Below are positions 11,667 through 25,161 of a stretch of DNA of 43,331 nucleotides, piece by piece. The notes under the pieces are model-generated. The model saw only the letters and a program-made list of their open reading frames with translations, had not been told where the DNA came from and ran no database searches. The translations under genes and the position numbers were made by a program. The stretch's first letter is position 1, and every line of letters starts with the position of its first letter. Origin of the DNA: Lentisphaeria bacterium (lineage in GTDB: Bacteria > Verrucomicrobiota > Lentisphaeria > Victivallales > Victivallaceae); contig JAFVZS010000116.1 of assembly GCA_017508015.1 (NCBI GenBank), positions 1 to 43,331 on the forward strand. The letters run 5' to 3'.

Positions 11667-12845
11667 TTATTTTCCGGTTTCAATCACCAGACCGCGCCGG
11701 ATAAAAGTCGGCACATCCAAATCCTCCCCATCCAGCATGATCGGAGTGGTATTTTCCATGATGCCTTTTTCCACAATATCCAAATTCGGCAGAGCCAACT
11801 GTTCACCGGAATCTCCGGACCGGCTCGCATTATTTCTCCGGAATGAATATTTTCCTGCCGCCGGTTCACTTTTCACCGGATTATCCAGATAACGAACCGC
11901 CAGGGCTGTAAGCTGGATCCTGCCCGAAAAGTCGGTATCTGCCGCTGCTCCGAGCAATATTTTTTTCTCAAAATCCGGATTTATCTGGCGTGAACACAAA
12001 TCCAGTACCGCCCGGGCACGCCCCATGGATAATTCCGGACCGCCGATCAAAGAAAACGTCACAGCATCAGCATTATCCAGCGTTTCCGGTCCGCCAAGCA
12101 ATGGTGAAGCCAACAATTCATCCATCGCCGCAGATGCCGCTTCATCGCCATCAGTCACCATCGCAGTTCCCAACGCACACAGTGAGTGCCGCCGTTTCAG
12201 TACCCCGGTAAATGCCGCAAAATCAGCATTGAAAAGATTTGCCCCGCCCAAAACAGTGGCAACTGCAAATAAACTGCGGGAAATTTCTTCATCCGATTTG
12301 GCAAATGCTTCAGCAACCGGTGTTTCTGCTTCCATTGCGGAAAAGAGCAAATCGTTGGGCAATGCGATTACGGCATCGGCTATCGGCAACAAGTCATTTT
12401 TGATCTTTTCATCGGAAATTTGCCGCCGCTGAAATCCTTCCATGGCAAACGGCAGTGTAACCAGAACTGCGGTGGTAATGTGCATTTTTGCCGCCACGCC
12501 GAGAATCACCGGCAAACCTCCGGTAGCCAAACCGCCGCCCAGACCGGCAACAATGATCAACACATCCGTACCGCTCAAAACCGTATTAAGCAGCTTTCTC
12601 TCATTGGCCAATGCCTGCTGACCGGCAATCAGATCGCCGCCGCACCCCCGGCCGGAACGCAGCAGACGACCGGCCTGAATCCAGTTTTCTTCCGGTACTC
12701 CGGAATTACGCAGAGCTTCGATATCGCTGTCCAATGCCAGTAAACGGAATTTTTTTGCGGCATCAAGAGCGGTGAATTTCTGAATTATCCGGCATCCGGC
12801 ACCACCGACTGCCATTATTGCAATTCTGTTTTCCGACATATTCAT
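11667..12845 (-). CDS. ftsZ: Divergent FtsZ, cell-division tubulin homologue
   Basis: A 392-residue FtsZ-like protein that can be aligned along its whole length with classical FtsZ. The glycine-rich start is AVGGAGCRII. The tubulin signature region reads AGLGGGLATGG (101-110) where GGGTGTG is expected. The base- and ribose-contact regions are kept in part: PFAMEGFQRR and ALPND are present. The T7 loop reads NADFAAF (206-212): Asn and the first Asp remain, but the second catalytic Asp (Asp212 in E. coli) is Ala211. The C-terminal peptide LDVPTFIRRGL closely matches the FtsA/ZipA-binding tail DIPAFLRK. Its ATG overlaps the ftsA stop as ATGA. It should form the division ring with FtsA, but GTP hydrolysis may be weak or different. 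It could also be a second, non-canonical FtsZ. Confidence 0.88.
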   Translation of the reverse strand: MNMSENRIAIMAVGGAGCRIIQKFTALDAAKKFRLLALDSDIEALRNSGVPEENWIQAGRLLRSGRGCGGDLIAGQQALANERKLLNTVLSGTDVLIIVAGLGGGLATGGLPVILGVAAKMHITTAVLVTLPFAMEGFQRRQISDEKIKNDLLPIADAVIALPNDLLFSAMEAETPVAEAFAKSDEEISRSLFAVATVLGGANLFNADFAAFTGVLKRRHSLCALGTAMVTDGDEAASAAMDELLASPLLGGPETLDNADAVTFSLIGGPELSMGRARAVLDLCSRQINPDFEKKILLGAAADTDFSGRIQLTALAVRYLDNPVKSEPAAGKYSFRRNNASRSGDSGEQLALPNLDIVEKGIMENTTPIMLDGEDLDVPTFIRRGLVIETGK

Positions 12846-14185: not shown

Positions 14186-14551
14186 TCACCTGACCGTCCC
14201 CAGACTGATTATCCGCACCGGCAGCAAAATCACCTGATAAACCAATTCAAACGGGGCACAAATGCCTTTGATGAAATTATCCACACCATTGCTGAACATG
14301 CCGAATGGCGCACCGAGCGTGCATTGCAGAATCCCCGCAGGCAGCAACAGTATCGAAACTGCCGATTCACCGATCTTCATCAAACCGATGCCGCCGGATT
14401 GCAAGGCATTGATCGCATGCGGACTCCATATCGAAGCCAATTCAAACGCCTTCGGTGCCGCCGCCGTCACCGTAACCGGATCAACCGCCCGGGCGGGAAC
14501 CGGCAGTACAGCCGCCATCAACAGCAAAATCAGCACGATAAGCGTTTTCAT
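14186..14551 (-). CDS. Small exported hypothetical protein
   Basis: A 121-residue protein I do not recognise. It has a clear signal peptide (hydrophobic residues about 3-18, cleavage probably after ARA), then a mostly hydrophobic and glycine-rich body with two candidate membrane-seeking segments (about 52-75 and 98-115). It starts 2 bases after the stop of the upstream glycosyltransferase, and its ribosome-binding site GGAGAG overlaps the last codons of that gene. It is therefore almost certainly co-translated with it and could be an accessory of the same envelope function. It is the last gene of the tig-clpP-clpX-kinase-dxr unit. Confidence 0.7.
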   Translation of the reverse strand: MKTLIVLILLLMAAVLPVPARAVDPVTVTAAAPKAFELASIWSPHAINALQSGGIGLMKIGESAVSILLLPAGILQCTLGAPFGMFSNGVDNFIKGICAPFELVYQVILLPVRIISLGTVR

Positions 14552-16081: not shown

Positions 16082-17224
16082 TCACCCCTGACATTCCCGG
16101 GCTCTGATCCGGGCTTCGGCATCGGCGTGCAAGACCTGTTCCAGAGATATTTGGGGTTCGACCGGAGACTTTTCCATCACCTGCCCCACAATTTTCCAAA
16201 TAGTGCCGAAAGGTATTTCACCGTTGCAGAATCTTTCCACAGCAACTTCATTGGCGGCATTCATCACTGCCGGCAGAGTGCCTCCGGCACGCAATGCCGC
16301 ACCGGCGAACTCCAGAGATGGAAATTTTTTCCTGTCCGGAGCATAAAATTTCAATTCGGCCAACTTGCCGAGATCCAAATTACTGCCGGGTTTTTCCAAC
16401 CTTTCCGGATAACTCAAACCGTAAGCGATCGCCAGACGCATATCCGGCACCGACATTTGTGCCAGCATCGATCCGTCGGTCAATTCAACCAACGCATGCA
16501 CCACAGATTGCGGATTGATCACCACATCCAGCTGATCGGCGGTCAAGTTGAAAAGATATTTTGCTTCGATCAACTCCAATGCCTTATTCATCATTGAAGC
16601 CGAATCTATTGTGACCTTAGGTCCCATGCTCCAGGTCGGATGGGCCAATGCTTCACTCAAGGTGGCGTTGCGGATCCTTTCGCTTTCCCAGGTGCGGAAT
16701 GGTCCGCCGGAAGCCGTCAGCCACACCTTGCGTATCTCACTGCGCTGCCGCCCGGCCAATCCCTGAAACACTCCGGAGTGTTCACTGTCAACCGGCACGA
16801 TACTGCCTGATTCCGCGGCGGCTTGCATCACCAGCTCACCGGCCAGCACCAGTACTTCTTTACTGGCCAATGCCACTTTTTTACCGGCTTTCAATGCCGC
16901 CAGTACCGGAAGGATCCCGGCCGTACCGACGATCGCACACAAAACCGTATCCACATCATCCTGCTGTACAGCCTCGATCATGGCATCCATGCCGCACTTT
17001 ACCGATGTCTGAGAACCGATCATCTGCTGCAATTCCGGGAATCGGAGTTCTGAAGCAGTGATCACATTTTCCGGAGCAAGCAGCCGGGTCTGACGGCACA
17101 ATTCCGCCAGATTTTCCCGGGCGGCAAGCGTATGCACGGCAAAACGGTCTTTATTGGCCGCCAGCACATCCGCCGCACTGCGCCCGATGGAACCGCTGGC
17201 TCCGAGAACAACTACTTTTTCCAT
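16082..17224 (-). CDS. dxr: 1-deoxy-D-xylulose 5-phosphate reductoisomerase
   Basis: A 380-residue enzyme of the non-mevalonate (MEP) isoprenoid pathway that converts DXP to MEP with NADPH. Motifs in order are the NADPH site GASGSIG (8-14), ALASKEVLVLAGE (usually ANKE), PVDSEHSGVFQ (usually SEHNA), LTASGGPF, and HPTWSMGPKVTIDSASMMNKALE, which holds substrate and metal ligands. The C-terminal helical domain is complete. ATG 17224 is preferred over the longer frame to 17269 because GGGAG precedes it and the longer frame would run into the kinase gene. It is 16 bases downstream of the kinase stop. Confidence 0.95.
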   Translation of the reverse strand: MEKVVVLGASGSIGRSAADVLAANKDRFAVHTLAARENLAELCRQTRLLAPENVITASELRFPELQQMIGSQTSVKCGMDAMIEAVQQDDVDTVLCAIVGTAGILPVLAALKAGKKVALASKEVLVLAGELVMQAAAESGSIVPVDSEHSGVFQGLAGRQRSEIRKVWLTASGGPFRTWESERIRNATLSEALAHPTWSMGPKVTIDSASMMNKALELIEAKYLFNLTADQLDVVINPQSVVHALVELTDGSMLAQMSVPDMRLAIAYGLSYPERLEKPGSNLDLGKLAELKFYAPDRKKFPSLEFAGAALRAGGTLPAVMNAANEVAVERFCNGEIPFGTIWKIVGQVMEKSPVEPQISLEQVLHADAEARIRARECQG

Positions 17225-17240
17225 ATTACTCCCACCGCAA

Positions 17241-18299
17241 TCAATTATGATACAAATGCCACGCCACACAGGCCGACATCCCGGATATCACCAACAGTAT
17301 AACGATAATGACCAGATAAATATTGCGTTTCAGAAAAAGTAACATATTCCGTCCGGCAGAGGCCTTTTCCGCAACGGCGGCATAACCGGACAATACCGCA
17401 TTCACATCCTGACGCAGCTCCATTGCCGATTGATAACGCTCGGCGGGATTCAAGGCCATCGCTTTCATGCAAACCGCTTCCAAACCGGCCGGCACCTGGG
17501 AATTGGTGAACTGCGGCGGCGGAATGCGCCCGGAAGCGGTCCGCCGCAAAATCTCATTCTGCGGCAAGCCGGCCAGTGGAGAATCCAGTGTCAGAATCGC
17601 ATAGAGAATACATCCCAGAGCATAGATATCCGCCGCCTTATCAGGCTTGCTGCTGCCGGAAATCAATTCCGGAGCCATATATCCCGGAGTACCCTTGATC
17701 TGACCGGCAATCCCGGTGGCAATATCTCCGGCCAATCCCCAGTCGATAACCTGCACTTCACCGAAATCACCACAGTGGATATTGCCGGGTTTCAAGTCAA
17801 AATGGCACACATCCAGCGAATGGGCAAATGCCACAGCGTTACACACCCGGATAAAAATCTGCACCAATCTGGTCTGCGGAAAATTTTCCAGAGTTTTTTC
17901 GTCTCCGGAACGCAGACGCTTCAAAATAACTGCCAGGGTAGAACCACGCAAATACTTCATAATGAAATACGGCGATCCGGAAACATCGATACCGATGTCA
18001 TAAACCGGAACAATATTCGGATGCTCCAATTTTGCCGTGATCCGGGCCTCGCGCACGAAACGGTTCAAATCATTGACCGGACGATCCCGGAAATCCGGCA
18101 TGATCGCCATTGCCACATCACGCCCGGTATCCCGGTCATGCACCAGCAGCACGCCTTTCATGCCGCCGAAACCGATACTGCGGATAAACTTGTAACGTTC
18201 CTGCGGTTTCAACGGCAATGTCGCCAACAGATCATCACTTTCCGGCACACTGTTCTCATCGTCAAGAATGATCGTGGCATCCTCAGCGATATCAGGCAC
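17241..18299 (-). CDS. Membrane-anchored Hanks-type Ser/Thr protein kinase with relocated lysine
   Basis: A 352-residue protein from the preferred GTG start at 18299, which overlaps clpX by 8 bases and has a GGA five bases before it. A longer frame from 18386 would overlap clpX by 95 bases. The kinase domain spans about 36-300. The glycine-rich loop is IGFGGMKGV (42-50) and beta-3 is DVAMAIM (61-67). The alpha-C glutamate is in FVREAR (Glu85), the catalytic loop is HFDLKPGN (Asp169), the metal-binding motif is DWG (187-189), and GYMAPE and [10 protein letters not shown] follow. One C-terminal transmembrane helix (about 327-347) leaves almost no extracellular domain. The usual VAIK lysine is Ala65, while the glycine loop carries Lys48. 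In register this is the WNK-kinase arrangement, so the enzyme is more likely active than dead. Targets are unknown. Confidence 0.85.
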
Positions 18300-19599
18300 G
18301 TTCCAGCTTTGCTTCGGATTCTCCACGCACAACCTCGGCAGTAATTGTACAACGCTGCATTTTACCCTTGCTTCCCGGAGCGGCAAACATCACATTGAGC
18401 ATCAGTTTTTCCATCAGTGAACGCAAGCCGCGCGCCCCGGTACCGCGTTTGACCGCCCGGTCAGCCAGTTCGTTCAGGGCTTCCGCAGTGAATTGCAAAT
18501 CCACATTCTGCATCGCCATCAGACGGCGGTACTGTTTGACCAGAGCGTTTTTCGGCTCCTGCAACACCCGGACCAGAGCATCTTTATCCAACGGCTCAAG
18601 TGCAGTGAGTACCGGCAGACGGCCGATAAGTTCGGGGATCAACCCGAAGTGTACCAGATCTTCCGGTTCGCATTCGGCAAAGAGCTTGCCGATATTTTCA
18701 CCGTCTTCAAATTCCGGCTGCACCTTCTGCGGGGCATTATCCCCGAAACCGAGCACCCGGCGGCCGCGACGCCGTTTTACCACTTTATCCAGGCCGACAA
18801 AAGCTCCGCCGCAAATAAAGAGGATATTGGAAGTATCGATGTGCAAAAACTCCTGATTGGGGTGCTTGCGCCCGCCCTGCGGCGGCACATTGGCAACTGT
18901 TCCTTCCAGAATTTTGAGCAGTGCCTGCTGAACACCCTCGCCGGAAACATCCCGGGTAATGGAAGCATTTTCGCCCTTGCGTGAAATTTTATCCAATTCA
19001 TCGATATAGATGATACCGATCTGAGTCTTTTCAATATCGCTGCCGGATGCCTGATAGAGCCGCAGAAGGATATTTTCCACATCTTCGCCGACATAACCGG
19101 CTTCAGTCAATGTCGTGGCATCGGTAATGGCGAAAGGCACATCCAGCATTTTGGCCAAAGTCTGCGCCAGCAGGGTTTTACCGCAACCGGTGGGCCCCAG
19201 AAGCAGAACGTTGCTTTTATCCAATTCGACATCTGCAAGTTCTTCAGGCAAGGCGGCATCCCGCCCGGAAAATTTTGATTTCAACCGGGAATAGTGGTTA
19301 AAAACCGCAACAGAAAGCACCTTTTTTGCCTGCTCCTGACCGATGACAAAACGATCCAGTTCAGCTTTGATTTCCTGCGGAGCCGGAACATGCAGATCGG
19401 CCAGCGGTGAAGCAGATTTACTTTTTTCACCCTTTTTCCGATCCTGTTGCACATCGCTGATGATTTCGTAGCCCCGGGTCAGACATTCAGAACAAATGCT
19501 CAAGCCCTCATACATACTGGGAATGAAAAACACATCTTTACGCTGTCCCGGCTCACTGCCGCAAAAAGCACAACACTGTTTATCTTTGGATTTGGCCAT
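18292..19599 (-). CDS. clpX: ATP-dependent Clp protease ATP-binding subunit ClpX
   Basis: A 435-residue AAA+ unfoldase. The N-terminal C4 zinc-binding domain is complete (CAFCGS and CSEC). The Walker A is [12 protein letters not shown], the pore-1 loop is AGYVGED, the Walker B is [10 protein letters not shown], and the RKH pore loop is [10 protein letters not shown]. An LGF tripeptide (RRVLGFGDN) stands in place of the IGF loop that docks on ClpP. Sensor and small-domain motifs ([17 protein letters not shown]) close the protein. It starts on the base next to the clpP stop, so ClpP and ClpX are made from one message. The following kinase gene overlaps its end. Confidence 0.97.
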
Positions 19600-20208
19600 T
19601 TATTTGCTCTTTTTCTTGGAAGGCAGAACCTTGTCGATCAAATGATATTCACAAGCTTCCTGGGCACTCATAAAGAAGTCCCGCTCGGTATCCTTGTAAA
19701 GTTTTTTCAACGGTTGTCCGGAATGTGATGCCAGAATCTTATTGAGCATCTCTTTCAAACGCAGGATCTCTTTTGCCTGAATATCGATATCCGCCGCTGT
19801 TCCCTCGGCACCACCCCACGGCTGATGGATCATGATCCGGCTGTTGGGCAATGCAAAACGCTTGCCGGGAGCCCCGGCGGCCAGCAGCACGGCCCCCATG
19901 CTGGCGCACTGACCGACACAGTAAGTACGCACATCGCATGAGATCAACTGCATGGTATCATAGATCGCCAGTCCGGCGGTCACAGAACCACCGGGACTGT
20001 TGATATACAATTCAATATCTTTTTTCGGATCTTCAGCCTGCAGAAAGAGCAATTGGGCAACCACCAGCCCCGCCACCTGATCATCGATCGGCGTACCCAG
20101 CAGAATGATCCGGTCTTTGAGCAAACGGCTGTAAATATCAAATGCCCGCTCGCCCTGACCGGTCTGCTCAATAACGGTCGGCACCAGGTATGAATTGGTC
20201 TTTTTCAT
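19600..20208 (-). CDS. clpP: ATP-dependent Clp protease proteolytic subunit ClpP
   Basis: A 202-residue serine peptidase that forms the tetradecameric ClpP barrel. The catalytic triad is visible: Ser in [14 protein letters not shown], His in [10 protein letters not shown], and Asp in [12 protein letters not shown]. The start context is typical ([32 protein letters not shown]). A ribosome-binding site GGAG lies five bases before the ATG. It is followed directly by clpX and preceded by tig with a 57-base gap, the common tig-clpP-clpX order. With ClpC encoded nearby, it probably serves two unfoldases. Confidence 0.97.
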
Positions 20209-20265: not shown

Positions 20266-21573
20266 TCAGTCGATCGCCGCCTGAGTGAGTTTTTCCAAAG
20301 CCTTACCATTGATGATATCCATGCGCAGCTCATCGATGGAACCGGATTTTTCCAGCATTTCACGCAGTTCACGCGGTTTGCAGCCGTAATAACGGCTCAT
20401 CATGGTCAACTGCTCATCAAGCTCTTTTTCATCCAGAGAGATCTCTTCAAGTTTGGCGACCTGACGCAGGATCAGGGCACGGCGAACCATCTTTTTGGCG
20501 TCATCCTCAACTGCGGCGCGGTGATCGGCCAATTCTGATTTGAATTTTTCGGCATCTTCATCGCTCTTGACAACTTCGCGGGCCTTCTGCTGGAGCAGTT
20601 TCTGGACTTCATTTTCGATCAAAGCTTCGGGCAGATCGAAAGAACCGGCCTGCTCATCAAGTTTGGCAAAAACCGCTTCTGAAGCATTGCGGCGCTGCTG
20701 ATTTTTCGCATCCAATTCCAAACCTTTGCGGATATTCTCACGCAAAGCTTCAATATCTTTGCTGCCGGTACGCTCGATCAATTCGGCATCGGTCAGTTTT
20801 TTGCGACGCTGAATGGCAGAAACTTTGACGGTGTAATTGACACTCTTGCCGGCCAGAGCAGCTTCACGGTAATCGGCCGGATATTCAGCGGTAAAGGCAT
20901 ACTCTTTGCCGACTTCAGCACCGGTAAGAGCTTTGATGCAGCCGGGAATGTTCTCCGGTTCGTTGAGCCACATGAAAGCATCCGTTGCCTCGACCTGACG
21001 TTTCAGGGAAGCGGAGGCATCTTCGGCAAGCTCAAAATCGCCTTTGTAATCGACTTTCAGCATATCCTCAGCCTGAGCGGCACCCTCGGCATCGGCGTAA
21101 GTGCCGTACATGGCCCGGTACATATCCAGACGCTCATCGATGGCTTTTTCCTCGACGGCATCCATCGGCACATCGACTTTGAGATTTTTGTAATCGCCCA
21201 GATCGATTGCCGGAGCAACTACACCTTCCATGGTGAAAGTAAACTCTTCACCGGCTTTGATGCTGCCGAATTCCTTGAAACGCAAGCTCAACAGATCCAG
21301 AGATTTATCCTCTTCGATCTTTTCAACGGCGGCACCGACGAAACGGTTGCGCAGCTCTTCATTGATCTCCGCTTCATATTTTTTACTCACCATGCCGACC
21401 GGAGCCTTGCCGGGACGGAAACCGGGGATGCTTGCCACTCCGGCGATATAGGAAACCACCTTATTCTGCTCGCTTTTGGCGACATCCGCCTCAATTTTGA
21501 CCGCGAATTCTTTAGTACAGACACCACTGTCTTTAACCTCAAGCACGATGGAATCGCTCAGTTTCTTTGCCAT
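20266..21573 (-). CDS. tig: Trigger factor, ribosome-associated chaperone
   Basis: A 435-residue trigger factor. The ribosome-docking signature GFRPGKAP is in the N-terminal domain, a FKBP-type peptidyl-prolyl isomerase region follows (about 150-240), and the long helical C-terminal arm includes ALIENEVQKLLQQ. It binds at the ribosome exit tunnel and protects nascent chains. The start is ATG at 21573; a GTG four codons upstream (21585) has its AAAGG too close. The gene is first in the tig-clpP-clpX-kinase-dxr unit and has a good promoter at 21654-21682. Confidence 0.94.
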   Translation of the reverse strand: MAKKLSDSIVLEVKDSGVCTKEFAVKIEADVAKSEQNKVVSYIAGVASIPGFRPGKAPVGMVSKKYEAEINEELRNRFVGAAVEKIEEDKSLDLLSLRFKEFGSIKAGEEFTFTMEGVVAPAIDLGDYKNLKVDVPMDAVEEKAIDERLDMYRAMYGTYADAEGAAQAEDMLKVDYKGDFELAEDASASLKRQVEATDAFMWLNEPENIPGCIKALTGAEVGKEYAFTAEYPADYREAALAGKSVNYTVKVSAIQRRKKLTDAELIERTGSKDIEALRENIRKGLELDAKNQQRRNASEAVFAKLDEQAGSFDLPEALIENEVQKLLQQKAREVVKSDEDAEKFKSELADHRAAVEDDAKKMVRRALILRQVAKLEEISLDEKELDEQLTMMSRYYGCKPRELREMLEKSGSIDELRMDIINGKALEKLTQAAID

Positions 21574-21653
21574 TTTACGACACACCTTTCATGTAAGTAT
21601 TGATTATGTAACAATAAAATTATTTTTCTTCCAGTCTACACTGTCATTTTCAT

Positions 21654-22324: not shown

Positions 22325-22666
22325 TCATTTTGCTGAAAAATGCGGGCACTCCCCCATCGGATCAGCTTCCTTATCCGTCAGTGCACAGACACTTTTGAAT
22401 GGATGTATCAGAAAATGCTGACAATTCCGGCAGAATTTCCGGTCTGCCGAACCGGATAATTCCACTTTTTCAGCAAAATCACCTCCCAGCAACGCCGCCA
22501 GACGGCTGCGGGATTGATCCGTTTTATCCTCATTGACTTTACTCTCAACTTTTTTCAGTTCTTTTCCGCAAAGAGCGCAGACATCGACCGTACCGGTGAT
22601 TTTCCAGCCTTCGGTAAGATTTTTCTTTTTAATGAAAGTTTCTTCATTACAAAAGGGGCAAATCAT
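22325..22666 (-). CDS. Small 8-cysteine zinc-ribbon protein coupled to ClpC
   Basis: A 113-residue protein with two four-cysteine clusters. The first pairs CPFC (Cys3, Cys6) with CALC (Cys30, Cys33), a classical zinc ribbon. The second has CRNC (Cys79, Cys82), Cys94 and Cys107 in a C-x2-C-x11-C-x12-C spacing. A charged linker joins them (about 36-70). Its ATG overlaps the clpC stop as ATGA, so it is translated together with ClpC and ends at a terminator. In Firmicutes the ClpC operon carries McsA, also a small double-cysteine-cluster protein, but I see no real sequence resemblance and no McsB kinase here. A role as ClpC adaptor or redox/metal sensor is inference from position. Confidence 0.75.
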   Translation of the reverse strand: MICPFCNEETFIKKKNLTEGWKITGTVDVCALCGKELKKVESKVNEDKTDQSRSRLAALLGGDFAEKVELSGSADRKFCRNCQHFLIHPFKSVCALTDKEADPMGECPHFSAK

Positions 22667-25161
22667 TTTTCCTCACCGGCAGTTTCCGGAAAAATCAATA
22701 TCTTTTTCCGGTCCAATTCCACTCTCACACCGGTTGCCCCGGCAAAAGAACCGCGCAAAATCTCCTCGGCCATGGGATCGCCGATCCAGTGTTCCACGGC
22801 CCGCCGCACCGGACGGGCTCCGTATTCAGGTTCAAAATCCCGCTCCAGAAGGAACTTTTTAACAGCATTGGAAACTGACAGCGTCAAGTTTCTTTCCGCC
22901 AGCTTGTCACGCAATTTATCCAATTCCAGATCGATGATCTTTATCAGAGAGCTTTTATCCAGCTTATGGAATATCACCACCTCATCCAAACGGTTGATAA
23001 ATTCCGGTTTGAAATATTTTTTGGCAATATTCAACAGCTTTTCCTCGACTTTGACCGACTCTGCCGACGGCTCGGAAGCAAATCCCAAAGTCCCAGTACC
23101 GGCGATCTCGGCAGCACCGACGTTGCTGGTCATGATCACCACGGTATTGCGGAAATCGATCTTACGCCCCAGTGTGTCGGTAATACGCCCCTCTTCCAGA
23201 ATCTGGAGCAGCATATTGATCACATCCGGATGAGCCTTTTCGATTTCATCAAACAACACCACACTGTAAGGACGGCGGCGCACCTTTTCGGTCAATTCGC
23301 CGCCATCGCCGTGCCCGACATATCCCGGCGGAGAACCGACCAGCCGGGAAACATTGAATTTTTCCATATATTCCGACATGTCGATCTGAATAAGCGAATC
23401 GGCATCCCCGAACATAAATTCAGCCAATGCCTTGGCCAGCAGCGTTTTTCCGACGCCGGTCGGCCCGAGGAAGATAAATGATCCGATCGGACGCAGCGGA
23501 TTTTTCAGCTCCGCCCGGGAACGGCGCAACGCTTTGGAAATCGCACTGACCGCCTGATCCTGACCGATCACGACCTTTTTCAATTCGCTTTCCATCCTCA
23601 GCAGTCTGGCACTTTCCCCCTCCTCTATCTGCTGAACCGGCACACCGGTAAGTTTGGCCACCACCGTGGCAATATCCGCCGGAGAAACCGGAGTGACCGT
23701 ATCTCTTTTGGCTTCACGCCACCGGGTCATCAATTCATCAAGCTTTTTCCGGATCACACGTTCATCATCCCGCAATTTGGCGGCAGATTCAAAATCCTGT
23801 TCAGCGACCGCTTTAAGCTTCTTTTCCGAAAGTTCAGCAAGTTCAAAATCCAGCTTTTCCGTATCCGGCGGCGGAATGACCTGACTGATCCGTGCCCGCG
23901 AACCGGCTTCATCCATCACATCTATCGCCTTGTCAGGCAGAAAACGGCCGGAAATATAACGATCCGAAAGTTTAACGGCACTTTCCAAAGCTCCCGGCAG
24001 ATAGCGCACATGATGGTGCTTTTCATAAGTTTCTTTCAAGCCGTCAAGGATCTTGATGGAATCAGCCACCGACGGCGGATTTACGACCACCGGCTGAAAA
24101 CGGCGTTCCAAAGCGGCATCTTTTTCAATACCTTTGCGGTATTCATCCAGCGTGGTAGCCCCCACACATTGCAACTCGCCGCGGGAAAGAGCCGGCTTGA
24201 TGATATTGGCGGCATCCATCGCTCCCTCTGCCCCACCGGCCCCGACAATGGTGTGCAATTCATCAATGAATAATATGACATTGCCGGAGTTGCGCACTTC
24301 ATCGATCACGCCTTTGATCCGTTCCTCAAATTGTCCGCGATACTTGGTTCCGGCGACCATCAGCGGCAAATCGATGGAATATATCAGCTTATCCGCCAGC
24401 AGATCAGGCACATTCCCGGAGGCGATCGCCAATGCCAGACCTTCAATGATTGCGGTCTTTCCCACCCCGGCTTCACCGACAAGCACCGGATTATTCTTGG
24501 TCCGGCGGCACAATATCTGGATCACCCTTTCAATTTCCTCACTCCGGCCAACGACCGGATCCAGAGAACCGCCGGCTGCCAACGCCGTCAGATTGCGCCC
24601 GAATGCCTCAAGTGCAGTATAGCTGCCGGATGGCGGCGGTGAAGCACTTCCCGGAGTGCCATCCTGCGGGGATTCTTCACCGGAATTGCCCGGCAGATAA
24701 TCCGGATCAAGAGCCAGCAATACCGCTTTGCGGACCTCATCGGCATTCACACCGAGATTGCGCATCACTCTGGCGGCCTGACTTGCTCCTTCCCGCAAAA
24801 TTCCCAACAGCAAATGTTCCGTGCCGATAAAATTGTAATTCATGGCACTGGCTTCTTTGGCGGCCAATTCAAAAACTCTACTCAAACCGCTGGTAATTGC
24901 CAACTCCCCGGCCAGCATGGTCGCTTCCCCCTGGCCGCAGCTTTTTTCAACTTCCAGACGCAGGGCATCCAGATTCAATCCTTTTTCCTGCAATACACTC
25001 ATCGCCACACCTTCGCCCAAAGCGATCAAACCGAGCAAAAGGTGTTCCGTGCCGACATAGCCGTGGTTGAAACGCATCGACTCCCGCTTGGCCAGCAGCA
25101 ATGCCTGACGGGCACGCGGGGTGAATCTTTCAAATCCTCCGGAATGAGGTTTATCACTCAT
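22663..25161 (-). CDS. clpC: ATP-dependent Clp protease ATP-binding subunit ClpC
   Basis: An 832-residue class I Clp/Hsp100 ATPase. The N-domain has two Clp repeats (FTPRARQALLLAKRES and the second at YNFIGTEHLLLGIL, residues about 12-150). A Gly/Ser/Pro-rich linker (158-180) follows. D1 has Walker A GEAGVGKT (229-236). The middle region carries a UVR-type coiled coil (EQDFESAAKLRDDE), the mark of ClpC rather than ClpA or ClpB. D2 has GPTGVGKTLLAKALA. Together with ClpP it degrades unfolded or tagged proteins; ClpC normally needs adaptors. AGGAG precedes the ATG by 11 bases. The promoter is at 25235-25263; no CIRCE or CtsR-type operator is seen. Confidence 0.95.
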   Translation of the reverse strand: MSDKPHSGGFERFTPRARQALLLAKRESMRFNHGYVGTEHLLLGLIALGEGVAMSVLQEKGLNLDALRLEVEKSCGQGEATMLAGELAITSGLSRVFELAAKEASAMNYNFIGTEHLLLGILREGASQAARVMRNLGVNADEVRKAVLLALDPDYLPGNSGEESPQDGTPGSASPPPSGSYTALEAFGRNLTALAAGGSLDPVVGRSEEIERVIQILCRRTKNNPVLVGEAGVGKTAIIEGLALAIASGNVPDLLADKLIYSIDLPLMVAGTKYRGQFEERIKGVIDEVRNSGNVILFIDELHTIVGAGGAEGAMDAANIIKPALSRGELQCVGATTLDEYRKGIEKDAALERRFQPVVVNPPSVADSIKILDGLKETYEKHHHVRYLPGALESAVKLSDRYISGRFLPDKAIDVMDEAGSRARISQVIPPPDTEKLDFELAELSEKKLKAVAEQDFESAAKLRDDERVIRKKLDELMTRWREAKRDTVTPVSPADIATVVAKLTGVPVQQIEEGESARLLRMESELKKVVIGQDQAVSAISKALRRSRAELKNPLRPIGSFIFLGPTGVGKTLLAKALAEFMFGDADSLIQIDMSEYMEKFNVSRLVGSPPGYVGHGDGGELTEKVRRRPYSVVLFDEIEKAHPDVINMLLQILEEGRITDTLGRKIDFRNTVVIMTSNVGAAEIAGTGTLGFASEPSAESVKVEEKLLNIAKKYFKPEFINRLDEVVIFHKLDKSSLIKIIDLELDKLRDKLAERNLTLSVSNAVKKFLLERDFEPEYGARPVRRAVEHWIGDPMAEEILRGSFAGATGVRVELDRKKILIFPETAGEEK

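Follow-up and report, generated by a model that had tools for sequence, protein, structure and literature searches.

A kinase gene overlaps clpX in a proteostasis cluster

The window, by which we mean the whole stretch of 43,331 nucleotides analysed here, comes from a gut Lentisphaerota bacterium and encodes a Hanks-type Ser/Thr kinase within a group of Clp protease and chaperone genes. The start of the kinase gene is uncertain, an in-frame TTG at 18386 being a possible alternative to the GTG listed here. The genes concerned are as follows.

16082-17269, minus strand: dxr, downstream of the kinase gene (profile match; synteny), an adjacency kept only in close relatives
17241-18299, minus strand: Hanks-type Ser/Thr kinase with relocated catalytic lysine, 352 amino acids, GTG start at 18299
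17247-17321, minus strand: C-terminal transmembrane helix of the kinase, about residues 327-351 (helix 327-351 predicted by AlphaFold2, and hydropathy)
18292-19599, minus strand: clpX, directly upstream of the kinase gene (NCBIfam ClpX, 584 bits; synteny)
19600-20208, minus strand: clpP (profile match; synteny)
20266-21585, minus strand: tig, trigger factor (profile match; synteny)

The location beside clpX given in a preliminary description of this DNA holds, and the start of the kinase gene overlaps the clpX stop (18292) by 8 nt. An AAA+ gene at 22663-25161 encodes a UVR motif and resembles ClpC; together with the adjoining gene for a small protein it spans 22325-25161. The small protein has CxxC pairs, gave no Pfam match and is McsA-like by eye. 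Together, tig, clpP, clpX, the kinase gene, the ClpC-like gene and the gene for the CxxC protein form a proteostasis cluster. Each of the 35 close loci has the order clpP-clpX-kinase, and most also have tig upstream. In 18 further fetched loci of family f1, some of which belong to the same genomes as the 35, clpX adjoined the kinase gene; in all, the order is conserved in about 50 Victivallaceae loci. Among the loci read, this adjacency was confined to f1, none of the closest homologues found outside f1 adjoined clpX, and five f1 genomes without the kinase do have clpX, the sequence read on either side of it encoding no kinase. Elsewhere in the window, positions 11667-12845 encode a divergent FtsZ (NCBIfam 148.7 bits against a cut-off of 295.2), and positions 14186-14551 hold an uncharacterised conserved gene near ftsA and dxr, whose 121-residue product has no Pfam or NCBIfam match and is 56-91% conserved in relatives.

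The kinase matched the Pfam Pkinase profile (PF00069) at E = 6.4e-39 and 134.4 bits, against a gathering cut-off of 31.7. AlphaFold2 predicted a confident kinase fold (pLDDT 93.1, pTM 0.91), for which the best PDB matches were PknB structures. The protein is a short form that ends just past its C-terminal membrane helix. It scored 213.5 bits against the PknB/Stk1 PASTA kinase profile NF033483, below the cut-off of 450. A role as an anti-phage kinase was rejected, as the PADLOC PD-T4-6 matches cover the generic kinase domain only and gene order gives no support.

The presumed catalytic lysine lies in the glycine-rich loop

The active-site elements read from the translation are listed below.

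18150-18173, minus strand: glycine-rich loop GFGGMKGV, residues 43-50; Lys48 is AAA at 18156-18158
18099-18122, minus strand: beta-3 strand RDVAMAIM, residues 60-67; Ala65, GCG at 18105-18107, replaces the VAIK lysine
18048-18050, minus strand: alphaC Glu84, invariant in the family
17781-17804, minus strand: catalytic loop HFDLKPGN, residues 166-173, with Phe in place of the HRD Arg
17736-17744, minus strand: DWG metal-binding motif, residues 186-188

These residue and codon assignments agree base for base with the preliminary description, which had also stated that all remaining catalytic elements are kept; Glu84, HFDLKPGN, DWG and an APE motif (residues 209-211) can all be read in the translation. 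Lys48 occupies position 6 of the glycine loop and Ala65 the VAIK position, position 23 from the first loop glycine. As in WNK kinases, a loop lysine (K6) stands in for the beta-3 lysine, which is replaced here by Ala. Both the gained and the lost lysine had been said to sit at WNK positions, and alignment with WNK1 (PDB 6cn9/4pwn) bears this out, placing Lys48 on K233 and Ala65 on C250. Furthermore, E84 aligns with E268, D186 with D368, and D168, K170 and N173 of the catalytic loop with D349, K351 and N354.

Loop lysine and small beta-3 residue are paired throughout a bacterial family

Scanning GTDB contigs by similarity, with a loop lysine not among the search conditions, we recovered 35 close loci from Victivallales/Lentisphaerota and one distant Lentisphaeria locus (L039). 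All 36 orthologues carried K6/A23, whereas the canonical relatives readable in the scan (Planctomycetota, Myxococcota and others) had no loop lysine and retained K23. A DNA pattern in which the loop lysine was fixed and the VAIK position left free matched in 102 of the 388 genomes sampled from the phylum, a few of them by chance (e.g. G067, G070:C60 and G120), and a reversed control pattern gave 7 matches overall. Among the loop-lysine kinases retrieved (n = 159), position 23 was Ala in 157, Gly in 2 and Lys in none, so that the beta-3 lysine otherwise invariant in Hanks-type kinases was absent from every one; the kinases without a loop lysine in the same set were G6/K23 in 26 of 26 cases. In genomes that lacked the pattern, all kinases read were canonical except one degenerate copy. 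Ascertainment bias from fixing K6 in the pattern was checked with the similarity-only loci and with reciprocal patterns: across 139 genomes of the class Lentisphaeria there were no K6/K23 matches, and the single G6/A23 match contained a stop codon, leaving no genuine one.

Lys48 was encoded by AAA in 99 members and AAG in 57, and the alanine site used all four Ala codons. This mixture of synonymous codons points to selection on the amino acids and, together with the 36 orthologues found by similarity, rules out a sequencing or chance artefact. K6/non-K23 kinases are present in many Verrucomicrobiota genomes with perfect covariation. The preliminary description had spoken of a coordinated double change; in this clade it was one evolutionary event, not repeated covariation, and because the swap happened once in the clade, the association of the two residues cannot be counted as a series of independent events.

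We assessed constraint in an alignment of 105 diverse members, which are 37-64% identical to the window protein and every one of which matched Pkinase at E<=0.001. K48, E84, H166, D168, K170, N173, D186 and G188 were invariant, and these include the residues that define a Hanks-type kinase (catalytic Asp, Lys+2, Asn+5, the DxG Asp and the alphaC Glu). The column of residue 65 held Ala in 104 members and Gly in one; such a strict small residue at the vacated site would fit a lysine side chain that crosses this space. The HRD Arg position is almost always Leu or Phe, also Tyr, with few exceptions, and is a third difference from canonical kinases.

These patterns bear on whether the family is catalytic at all. 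A missing beta-3 lysine is the formal criterion for a pseudokinase (PMC12599244), and the HRD Arg is gone as well; the fold could then bind ATP and carry out no phosphotransfer, with Lys48 having a structural or nucleotide-binding role only. However, the catalytic Asp/Lys/Asn, the DWG Asp and the alphaC Glu have stayed invariant over deep divergence, the new loop lysine is itself invariant, and in L211, a truly degenerate kinase from a related genome, several motifs are lost together (IHSL, HCNLHPKN, SWG). We therefore consider a pseudokinase family unlikely.

Relocated-lysine kinases are mainly found in Lentisphaeria

The K6/A23 clade lies within Verrucomicrobiota in the GTDB sense, mainly in Lentisphaeria, and pattern matches elsewhere in the phylum fell in families f22, f25, f19 and f30. 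The pattern matched in one or two of 343 sampled Planctomycetota genomes and was absent from all 141 sampled Myxococcota genomes. Four genomes of Lentisphaeria family f11 (G195, G212, G236 and G318) had 19-28 pattern matches each, and all those fetched were relocated-lysine kinases. Their kinase-TM-TPR/LRR-like build and massive expansion have the appearance of a lineage-specific receptor kinome. In almost all members of the family a transmembrane helix directly follows the kinase domain, and paralogues extend about 300 residues past it, with weak TPR and LRR matches.

Two further observations concern individual genomes. G453, drawn as a member of the otherwise nearly devoid Planctomycetota, holds ten relocated-lysine kinases (L105 and L111-L119), for which horizontal transfer, mis-binning and misclassification are alternatives. 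The degenerate kinase L211 (G076:C17) directly adjoins an intact paralogue, L201, and the two are likely a true pseudokinase pair.

Comparison with canonical and rearranged kinases

The family has its fold, its motif order and its best sequence and structure matches in common with PknB/Hanks-type kinases, among which are canonical PVC kinases that carry DWG. In contrast to the family, these keep the beta-3 lysine, mostly have HRD and carry Gly or Ser at loop position 6. Kannan et al. (2007) singled out Wnk as the one functional ePK family to lack K72, and a positive charge likewise shifted, from position 72 to position 55 of the glycine loop, in CAK-chloro (PMC1821047); there, however, the residue is Arg rather than Lys, the alphaC Glu is replaced by Phe, and the proteins belong to another kinase-like family. 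POMK (SGK196) has a functional glycine-loop lysine, as in the bacterial family, but lacks the alphaC Glu and pairs this lysine with a Glu at its DLD motif (PMC12599244). The rearranged ATP pockets of CAK-chloro and POMK lend some plausibility to an active enzyme that catalyses another transfer, such as AMPylation, or that uses another residue in place of the lysine. On the substrate side, however, the motifs (HxDLKPx[10 protein letters not shown]) match those of ordinary Ser/Thr kinases, and we regard such a divergent activity as very improbable.

In a 2025 review of bacterial pseudokinases WNK appears solely as a eukaryotic comparison (PMC12599244), and our search of the openly accessible literature yielded no account of a WNK-like family in bacteria. 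To that extent, this large family of bacterial K6/A23 kinases is previously undescribed.

The swap is best read as convergent with WNK

In phylogenetic trees the K6/A23 kinases formed a single clade with support of 100/99, which remained at 99 after the loop-6, VAIK and HxD residues were masked. Judged from these trees, the swap arose once in the bacterial clade. One Planctomycetota kinase, L106 (G548), combines K6/G23 and VALG at the VAIK site with HRD and DFG; this single, partly masked locus may represent another, independent appearance of the swap.

Human WNK1 grouped with PAK1 and PKA at 99/99. The WNK1 sequence used was identical to PDB 6cn9 at 284 of 284 positions, and PAK1 and PKA were likewise checked against PDB chains. 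Since WNK1 falls with PAK1 and PKA, convergence, as the preliminary description had proposed, is the best reading of the WNK-like swap. Common descent by horizontal transfer, for which the identical two-residue swap and the p-AU of 0.57 for a joint clade with WNK1 as the sole eukaryotic row could be cited, is extremely improbable given the placement of WNK1, the marginal rejection of the joint clade in the tree with PAK1 and PKA (p-AU 0.047), the lowest score of the family profile falling on WNK1 among 26 test kinases (103.8 bits, compared with 358 bits for the nearest canonical PVC kinase and 211 bits for PknB), and the different HRD, DLG and chloride-pocket residues.

Several features separate the two groups. 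WNK kinases, the blood-pressure kinases of humans, keep HRD and DLG, whereas the bacterial family has HLD or HFD and DWG; the VAIK position is Cys in WNK1 and Ala in the family; and the bacterial proteins have a transmembrane anchor and lie in a separate clade. The equivalent of the WNK activation-loop Ser382 is Gln200 in the window kinase, in an unconserved column. At F283, L299, L369 and L371, which we take to be the chloride-binding pocket of WNK, the window kinase has V99, F112, W187 and L189, so that only L371 is matched. Because three of these four residues differ, WNK-type chloride sensing is not predicted for the window kinase.

A proposed mechanism and its implications

Taken together, the sequence data make it likely that the window protein is an active Ser/Thr kinase anchored in the membrane, that it belongs to a clade, found chiefly in Lentisphaeria, whose catalytic lysine moved once from beta-3 to the glycine loop, and that it is linked to ClpXP. 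Lys48 most likely does the work of the VAIK lysine, as Lys233 does in WNK. In the proposed mechanism, the lysine that binds the ATP phosphates would have moved a single time, from beta-3 (VAIK) to loop position 6, with the vacated position becoming Ala and the HRD Arg a hydrophobic residue. Lys48 would coordinate the alpha and beta phosphates of ATP and pair with Glu84, as Lys233 does in WNK1, while Asp168 would serve as the base and Asp186 would bind Mg. With the HRD Arg lost, the catalytic loop is of the non-RD type, and the kinase is predicted to need no phosphorylation of its activation loop to be active. The window's short form, with its tail anchor, would be translationally coupled to clpX and, going by gene order, probably has the ClpXP system as its partner or its target.

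A more far-reaching scenario, which we consider improbable, is that a PVC lineage invented the WNK active site once, independently, and went on to derive an extensive set of receptor kinases from it. The free beta-3 pocket and the lost HRD Arg might then confer direct sensitivity to ions or crowding, as in WNK, and the ClpX-linked branch might couple this to ClpXP proteolysis.

A bacterial clade with the WNK swap would be an independent replicate of the WNK experiment and would reveal which accompanying changes are required, such as Ala at beta-3 and a hydrophobic HxD. Its simple domains would allow a test of whether relocation of the lysine by itself creates WNK-type properties, for example ion sensitivity. 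Moreover, pipelines that call kinases without the VAIK lysine pseudokinases would misfile the whole bacterial family.
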